A model generated the notes under the pieces. It ran no database searches and had not been told where the DNA came from. It was given only the letters and a program-made list of their open reading frames with translations. From NCBI GenBank assembly GCA_938048185.1, contig CALIVT010000029.1:1-64000 (forward strand): DNA of 64,000 bases, read 5' to 3'. Both the position numbers and the translations under genes were made by a program. The stretch is from an uncultured Arenicella sp. (GTDB lineage: Bacteria > Pseudomonadota > Gammaproteobacteria > Arenicellales > Arenicellaceae). Of the stretch, positions 32,639 to 33,189 are shown in pieces (within the stretch, counting starts at the first letter, position 1; each line of letters begins with the position of its first letter).

Positions 32639-32716
32639 ATTTGTCCTCTCTTTCTTTATTGTATAAGAAAAATATTGTTGATCATTAATGTCGTTGGAGT
32701 CTGACAGCTTCTTCAA

Positions 32717-32732
32717 AGCAAGCACTATGCCA
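32717..32732 (-). promoter_or_regulatory. Sigma-54 promoter for the TorF-type porin gene
   Basis: On the minus strand the sequence reads TTGGCATAGTGCTTGCT; the core TGGCAT-N5-TTGCT has the invariant GG and GC at -24/-12 with correct spacing. It is one base different from the opposing promoter at 33006-33021. The predicted transcript start lies near 32705, about 67 bases before the ATG. Confidence 0.85.
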
Positions 32733-32817
32733 ACTTTTTTGTTTTAAGTGGGAAAAGAACTGTTAACTTTTTAATTCTCGAATATCGATAGTTCGATTGG
32801 AATCTTTTAGTAAACAT

Positions 32818-32823
32818 TGCACC
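32818..32823. promoter_or_regulatory. Possible NtrC half-site
   Basis: TGCACC matches one arm of the NtrC consensus; the second arm (TAGGCG) is poor. Its centre is about 66 bp, close to six helical turns, from the better site at 32884-32900, as expected for paired enhancer sites. Confidence 0.4.
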
Positions 32824-32883
32824 ACTCATAGGCGCGGAACCTCGTCCAGCCGACAGAGTGCGAGCGACGGGGCAGGTCCTGCG

Positions 32884-32900
32884 TGCACCATTATAGTGCA
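32884..32900. promoter_or_regulatory. NtrC-like enhancer site shared by divergent promoters
   Basis: TGCACC-ATTAT-AGTGCA is an almost perfect match to the NtrC palindrome TGCACC-N5-GGTGCA. It lies between the leftward sigma-54 promoter (about 155 bp away) and the rightward one (about 110 bp away), normal enhancer distances. Confidence 0.8.
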
Positions 32901-33005
32901 TCCAGGATGGTTTATGCTCGAATTTGGAGCGTCAATTTAAGATGAGTTTTCCTTCATGCGCGTGCGATAGGAGAAGGGCGGTATCCGGTGAGGTGCTGGG
33001 AAAGT

Positions 33006-33021
33006 TGGCATGGTGCTTGCT
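33006..33021 (+). promoter_or_regulatory. Sigma-54 promoter for glnK-amtB
   Basis: TTGGCATGGTGCTTGCT (from 33005) contains TGGCAT-N5-TTGCT with the exact -24/-12 spacing. Its downstream edge lies about 170 bp before the glnK ATG. No protein gene is credible between it and glnK. Confidence 0.87.
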
Positions 33022-33189
33022 TAGTCCACGTCAGAAGCCTCTGTGTGGTAACACCGCGGTCGCTGAGTCGAAAGTATGCCTGCGTCTTTGCATTCAGGCG
33101 CAGCTCGTTGCGTTTTAATAAGCTTACTTCGATTGCATGACGAATTCAAAAAAACACTAAACAACATTTAACAATAAGGGTGAACTGCT

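Follow-up and report, generated by a model that had tools for sequence, protein, structure and literature searches.

The locus described here raises the question of why a gene for a putative outer-membrane porin stands back to back with the genes of an ammonium transporter and its P-II protein, and whether the two sides are placed under one control. The stretch of DNA analysed (64,000 nucleotides; hereafter the window) belongs to contig C29 in the draft genome (3.12 Mb, 42 contigs) of an uncultured Arenicella sp.

Organization of the torF and glnK-amtB genes

A 551-bp intergenic region separates torF (31964-32638, minus strand) from glnK (33190-33528, plus strand) and amtB (33636-34871, plus strand). 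The torF product of 224 amino acids, which ends in a C-terminal Phe, is a TorF family putative porin (TIGR02001 / PF09694), with a score of 156.9 bits against TIGR02001 (NCBIfam cut-off 47.15) and a match to PF09694 by Pfam as well; torF was the sole PF09694 gene detected in this genome. The P-II protein GlnK was identified by NF007946 (187.2 bits, cut-off 181), and AmtB by the marine subtype ammonium transporter model TIGR03644 (653.8 bits, cut-off 514). Terminator-like hairpins are located between torF and a convergent MerR-family gene (31910-31945, scored on the minus strand; 15 pairs followed by a T tract) and 3' of amtB (34918-34941, plus strand). The Rfam scan of the window for known leader RNA elements yielded two tRNAs only at gathering scores. 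Further downstream of amtB (34964-35348), a 127-bp unit is repeated three times in tandem with 94% matches, and two of the three copies include the inverted repeat GTGCAT-GG-ATGCAC.

Sigma-54 elements and NtrC sites between torF and glnK

The earlier note on this DNA had claimed two outward-facing sigma-54 elements within the intergenic region. By using the pattern TGGCAY-N5-TTGCW with fixed spacing, both were found as exact matches, TGGCATAGTGCTTGCT at 32717-32732 on the minus strand, facing torF, and TGGCATGGTGCTTGCT at 33006-33021 on the plus strand, facing glnK. The same pattern gave 17 matches over the entire 3.12-Mb genome, two of them being the torF/glnK pair, and eight matches were obtained with the reversed control, so that a single exact match exceeds the chance level by a factor of about two only. 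When the 551-bp intergenic region was shuffled by a first-order Markov procedure, the frequency of any exact element was 0.0017, and one exact element on each strand was never generated in 20,000 shuffles.

An almost perfect NtrC palindrome and a half-site, also claimed to lie between the two elements, are both present. The palindrome TGCACCATTATAGTGCA (TGCACC-N5-AGTGCA; 32884-32900, without strand) differs at one position from TGCACC-N5-GGTGCA, and its centre is 160 bp apart from the torF -24 element and 114 bp from that of glnK, while the half-site TTGCACCA (32817-32824, plus strand) belongs to a 17-bp slot centred approximately 94 bp from the torF -24 (worked by hand). The palindrome thus occupies the glnK-proximal slot and the half-site the torF-proximal slot. 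A genome-wide scan with TGCACYN5RGTGCA detected only two places, the torF/glnK region and the glnA-ntrC interval, and none with the control pattern. The genome contains rpoN, its ntrC is located in the same stretch as glnA, and its NtrC carries the GAFTGA loop.

The gene at 30960-31298, adjoining pheT, reads as IHF alpha (named by inspection), an arrangement found also in E. coli. Bending of the region by IHF, as suggested by the earlier note, was not borne out, because IHF sites were not enriched in the 15 divergent intergenic regions of the genus (no exact site, and 10 sites at one mismatch or less vs 12.6 expected).

Conservation of the divergent arrangement within the genus

Among the 18 genomes of the genus set, torF is divergent from glnK-amtB in 15, and forms a torF-glnK-amtB operon instead in two (G001 and G009); no torF match was found in the remaining one (G011, 87% complete). 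The scan of related genomes for RpoN and NtrC motifs, which had been proposed as a check, was positive for each motif in 14 of the 15 divergent loci: exact sigma-54 elements were present on both sides in all except L019, which has none, and an NtrC palindrome at two mismatches or less in all except L008 (mean of 0.25 and maximum of 2 in 200 shuffled sets). In the 14 two-element loci, the -24 ends are 191-273 bp apart. The palindrome centres there are located 80-160 bp from either -24 element, additional ones occurring at 38 bp (L016 and L017) and at 71 bp (L016), and in L012 two NtrC sites are placed symmetrically, at distances of 93 and 124 bp whichever side is taken. A palindrome (two mismatches or less) stands 80-95 bp from the torF -24 in 11 of 13 relatives, in the slot that is taken by the half-site in the window. 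The sole full palindrome of the window is farther from the torF -24 (160 bp) than in these relatives, a point against NtrC control of torF.

The near-identity of the paired elements appears to reflect largely a genus-wide extended consensus, AAGTTGGCA[CT], which is found also at glnA. As an alternative, the two elements could have become alike by recent inverted duplication or gene conversion, not by selection for the sigma-54 consensus. The identity of paired elements within a locus was in fact higher than that between loci (0.536 vs 0.442; permutation p 0.045, and 0.022 on a wider column set), but p was 0.080 on the five spacer columns and 0.23 and 0.78 on the flanks, these five tests being uncorrected, and AAGTTGGCA is shared with glnA. 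The excess of within-locus similarity is weak, and duplication or conversion is considered improbable as the origin of the pair.

On a quick tree of TorF, supported by SH-aLRT only, the divergent torF of L005 (G008) did not group with the other 14 divergent torF but in another TorF clade, and thus the porin appears to have been exchanged there under a promoter layout that stayed; the divergent label needs four changes on this tree. In L026 of G001, and in L161 as its named counterpart, a torF from the clade of the window is located downstream of another amtB and a 227-aa gene on the same strand, so that torF is joined to an ammonium transporter in yet a third manner.

Apparent natural loss of rpoN

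The rpoN gene was found in 16 of the 18 genus genomes, and the RpoN query from the genome of the window gave no match at E <=10 in G014 (99% complete) or G009 (78% complete). In G014, lptC-lptA-lptB is followed on one contig, after 540 bp, by hpf, ptsN, and rapZ without rpoN, the order in the genome of the window being lptB-rpoN-hpf-ptsN-rapZ (lptB, rpoN, and rapZ were identified by search and the other genes of this stretch by inspection). In G009, no rpoN start was recognized in the 774 bp from lptB to the contig end, and rapZ was not found.

These two genomes are the sole members of the genus in which the glnK-linked torF has no sigma-54 element (L019 of G014 and L018 of G009). Of 17 genomes with a glnK-linked torF, 15 combine rpoN with an exact element directed toward torF and two have neither, a coincidence expected by chance once in 136 by our own arithmetic, which involves two rpoN-less genomes only. 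In L018, the -24 half is apparently retained and the -12 half decayed, as judged by eye. The same relation was observed for glnA, of which the sigma-54 element was detected in all 12 rpoN-positive genomes with a located glnA start, and in neither of the two rpoN-negative genomes; glnA of G001 and G012 was missed by the glnA motif, and an exact element is present nonetheless in both stretches. Since loss of the elements together with rpoN is the pattern expected for elements that serve RpoN, the rpoN-less relatives may be regarded as naturally occurring mutants in favour of the assignment of RpoN promoters.

Both G014 and G009 have retained NtrC palindromes in the stretch with glnA and ntrC, and G014 has done so in the torF-glnK region too. 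The apparent loss of rpoN is accompanied in G014 (L261, L284) and G009 (L262, L285) by an NtrC that is kept with a changed loop, GAFAGA in the former and GAFSGA in the latter; the loop is GSFTGA in G001, and GAFTGA in 13 of 16 NtrC. The placements of G014 and G009 are not fixed on the NtrC tree, with G009 on a long branch, and one or two losses of rpoN within the genus would both fit the tree. It may be that NtrC has come to act with sigma-70 in these two genomes, which would be a new instance of such a change.

Distribution of torF-glnK-amtB over the class

In an even sample of the class, PF09694 was detected in 161 of 321 genomes. A total of 130 loci were examined, with nine weaker listed matches, unlisted matches, and three loci of the genus itself left aside, and our own profile identified 140 torF hits therein, including one gene split in two (L133). 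Of the 140 hits, 71 immediately precede glnK or amtB in the same orientation, none is divergent, and 69 are arranged otherwise, indicating that the torF-glnK-amtB operon is the usual order class-wide. The divergent layout is most simply read as a rearranged form of this widespread operon, the rearrangement presumably having run in that direction. Of the 69 other hits, 10 have glnK or amtB elsewhere in the fetched stretch, and since the remaining 59 of 140 have neither gene there, TorF is not tied to Amt alone.

After three operon hits and two others with too little upstream sequence were set aside, 68 and 67 hits, respectively, were scored. A sigma-54 element (one mismatch or less) faces torF in 55 of the 68 operons and faces away in one, and an NtrC site is present in 53 of 68; for torF outside operons, the corresponding numbers are 30, 3, and 17 of 67. 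As many as 11 of the 13 operons without such an element belong to genomes with rpoN over the cut-off, rpoN being matched in 261 of the 321 class genomes. Among operon genomes read by eye as rpoN-less, G106 has no element and G147 (93% complete) and G237 (72%) have one; in another operon genome, G246, only a weak rpoN match was obtained (E 4.9e-6). The operons that lack an element despite rpoN, and the two genomes with the reverse combination, count against the RpoN reading, but this class-wide comparison has little power, G147 and G237 being incomplete assemblies, and on balance it neither strengthens nor weakens that reading.

A further set comprised 80 named loci with 86 torF hits. In this set, 45 hits are in operons (28 with a forward element, none reversed) and 37 stand alone (17 forward, four reversed), and four are divergent, three of them with both elements, from Arenicella MAGs (L158, L160) and Gammaproteobacteria MAGs (L159, L162). 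In 11 of 21 SAR86-named loci (L178-L182, L186, L189, L209, L219, L220, and L228; L202 is alike), torF precedes glnK-amtB, and an exact sigma-54 element stands only 32-56 bp ahead of the torF match. The NtrC palindrome at two mismatches or less was absent from these 11 loci and from L202, an observation against the NtrC reading.

Proposed regulation of torF and glnK-amtB

The link between the porin and the ammonium regulon that the earlier note drew thus received strong support from the comparison of genomes, in which the elements and the order of genes were found to be conserved and the elements to disappear together with rpoN, although its part on IHF was not supported. Altogether, it is very probable that a shared bidirectional control region activated by NtrC couples the predicted TorF barrel to GlnK-AmtB.

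Two independent promoters might instead happen to diverge here, with torF under the control of a sigma-54 activator other than NtrC. The genome offers candidates for such an activator, with 29 matches to the ntrC model, although many of those listed extend over the receiver domain only, and the full palindrome of the window is closer to glnK than to torF. The palindromes at 80-95 bp from the torF -24 in the relatives and the NtrC sites upstream of torF in the majority of class operons, however, argue against separate control, and we consider this alternative to be unlikely.

With respect to the shared control region, established NtrC biology suggests how torF and glnK could be induced. Under nitrogen limitation, phosphorylated NtrC would bind to the central palindrome and probably to the half-site too, and the bound NtrC would, through DNA looping, open the two outward RpoN-RNA polymerase promoters. 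The TorF barrel and the GlnK-AmtB pair for uptake and sensing would then be induced together, and TorF would raise the permeability of the outer membrane for small nitrogen solutes.

Predicted structure and possible cargo of TorF

TorF is predicted to be an outer-membrane beta-barrel of 12 strands, based on AlphaFold2 with an alignment of 15 rows (best model with mean pLDDT 82.7 and pTM 0.75; range of pLDDT for five models, 65.9-82.7). No solved structure with sequence likeness to TorF was found at E <=1, and the best 50 matches by Foldseek were generic outer-membrane barrels such as OmpG and OccD, with query TM-scores of 0.34-0.56. In a review of pore families, Gcw chp has been placed in the 12-strand family 1.B.4 (PMC4827864).

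The gene contexts of torF point to nitrogen compounds. Homologues of UreG, UreF, or UrtA were detected by tblastn (E <=1e-8) in the fetched stretch of 11 of the 140 class torF hits, and a forward sigma-54 element accompanies torF in 10 of these 11. Neighbours of torF identified by NCBIfam include UrtA (TIGR03407), UreG (TIGR00101), and, in L141, formamidase (NF045496); in L138, a NifA-like activator was recognized below the cut-off. Ten of the 11 urea-linked torF belong to one TorF clade and that of L152 to another, and therefore the urea link probably arose twice.

Exact sigma-54 elements that face outward as a pair were identified once more in the genome of the window, on contig C13 (L278, G000:C13:97000-104000, positions 1151-3231). 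The two elements (99451-99466, minus strand; 99685-99700, plus strand) lie between the gene for an Alginate_exp-like outer-membrane protein and cynS (cyanase). Nearby are nirB-like and formate/nitrite transporter genes, both below the NCBIfam cut-offs and the former truncated at the end of the locus, with exact elements 43 and 60 bp before the start codon. No NtrC palindrome was detected in the C13 region at two mismatches or less.

The independent contexts of glnK-amtB, urt/ure, and formamidase favour the admission of a nitrogen compound by TorF. The contexts of ammonium, urea, and amide, and also the TMAO-related name of the family, suggest small nitrogen solutes as its cargo. This is the least certain part of our interpretation; most likely, the solutes would be ammonium or methylammonium at the present locus, and urea and amides where paralogues are located in urt, ure, or fmdA loci. 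It is quite conceivable that TorF is a general small-solute porin without nitrogen-specific cargo, which is swapped in under nitrogen starvation for the purpose of raising outer-membrane permeability or replacing other porins. The small barrel without a solved relative by sequence, the resemblance by Foldseek to generic porins, and the 59 class hits away from glnK and amtB are all in agreement with a general porin, but the association with two unlike nitrogen contexts (glnK-amtB, and ureG, urtA, or fmdA), both with sigma-54 elements, is not what such a porin would lead one to expect.

In a wider and more tentative form of the nitrogen-solute reading, TorF proteins could be pores of the outer membrane that are devoted to the entry of small nitrogen solutes, each paired with an inner system, AmtB for ammonium, UrtABCDE for urea, formamidase loci for formamide, and TMAO reductase; one NtrC enhancer with mirror-image promoters would serve pore and transporter in Arenicella-type bacteria, and in at least one rpoN-less lineage the enhancer would have been kept and the sigma-54 contact of NtrC lost, as a new rewiring from NtrC to sigma-70.

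Comparison with known systems

Passage of ammonium and urea through the outer membrane has generally been regarded as a step without regulation. No account of the TorF family as a member of the nitrogen regulon was found among the papers listed by searches of an open-licence library. A widespread porin family, annotated in Pfam as of unknown function, of which the genes recur together with NtrC/RpoN-type sites and with genes for the uptake of ammonium and urea provides a direct and testable candidate for a nitrogen-regulated step at the outer membrane.

In enterobacteria, glnK-amtB and glnA carry the enhancer TGCACC-N5-GGTGCA approximately 100 bp upstream of the -24/-12 element. The window resembles these promoters in having an NtrC enhancer upstream of -24/-12 elements; to our knowledge, no porin gene shares the NtrC enhancer at enterobacterial glnK-amtB or glnA. 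The closest known arrangement by gene order is the nlmA(orf1)-glnK-amtB operon of Herbaspirillum seropedicae, which is NtrC-dependent; there, limitation for nitrogen raised the activity of an amtB fusion 21 times, and NlmA was found in the membrane extracts of cells so limited (PMC3023670). The likeness is that a gene for a membrane protein of unknown function adjoins glnK-amtB, as compared by gene order and not by the NlmA sequence; the difference is that the genes of H. seropedicae form one operon, whereas those of the window are transcribed in two divergent directions, so that porin, glnK, and amtB are not co-oriented. Since that operon of the same order is NtrC-dependent, our regulatory claim is likely and its novelty modest: the linking of such a gene to glnK-amtB is already known (PMC3023670), and the divergent mirror-image form is a variant.

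With regard to the porin itself, the present TorF may be compared with two others. TorF of Shewanella oneidensis is presumably the namesake of the TorF family. It is listed in a table as the TMAO reductase system outer membrane porin (SO4694; PMC5955497), a respiratory context unlike that of torF in the window, and the two are likened by family name alone. Short chain amide and urea porins (SAP, TCDB 1.B.16) form an outer-membrane pore for amides and urea; SAP is a protein of about 414 aa with 16 strands, in contrast to the 224 aa and 12 predicted strands of the TorF in the window (PMC4827864).

The changed sigma-54 contact loop of NtrC in G014 and G009 is similar to the situation in Caulobacter and Rhodobacter, of which the NtrC lacks GAFTGA, but is different with respect to the kind of change, since a deletion of the loop is described in these two (PMC10274813), and in the rpoN-less members of this gammaproteobacterial genus only the Thr of the loop is substituted, by Ala and Ser, respectively. 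These rpoN-less relatives may serve for study of how NtrC changes its sigma factor.
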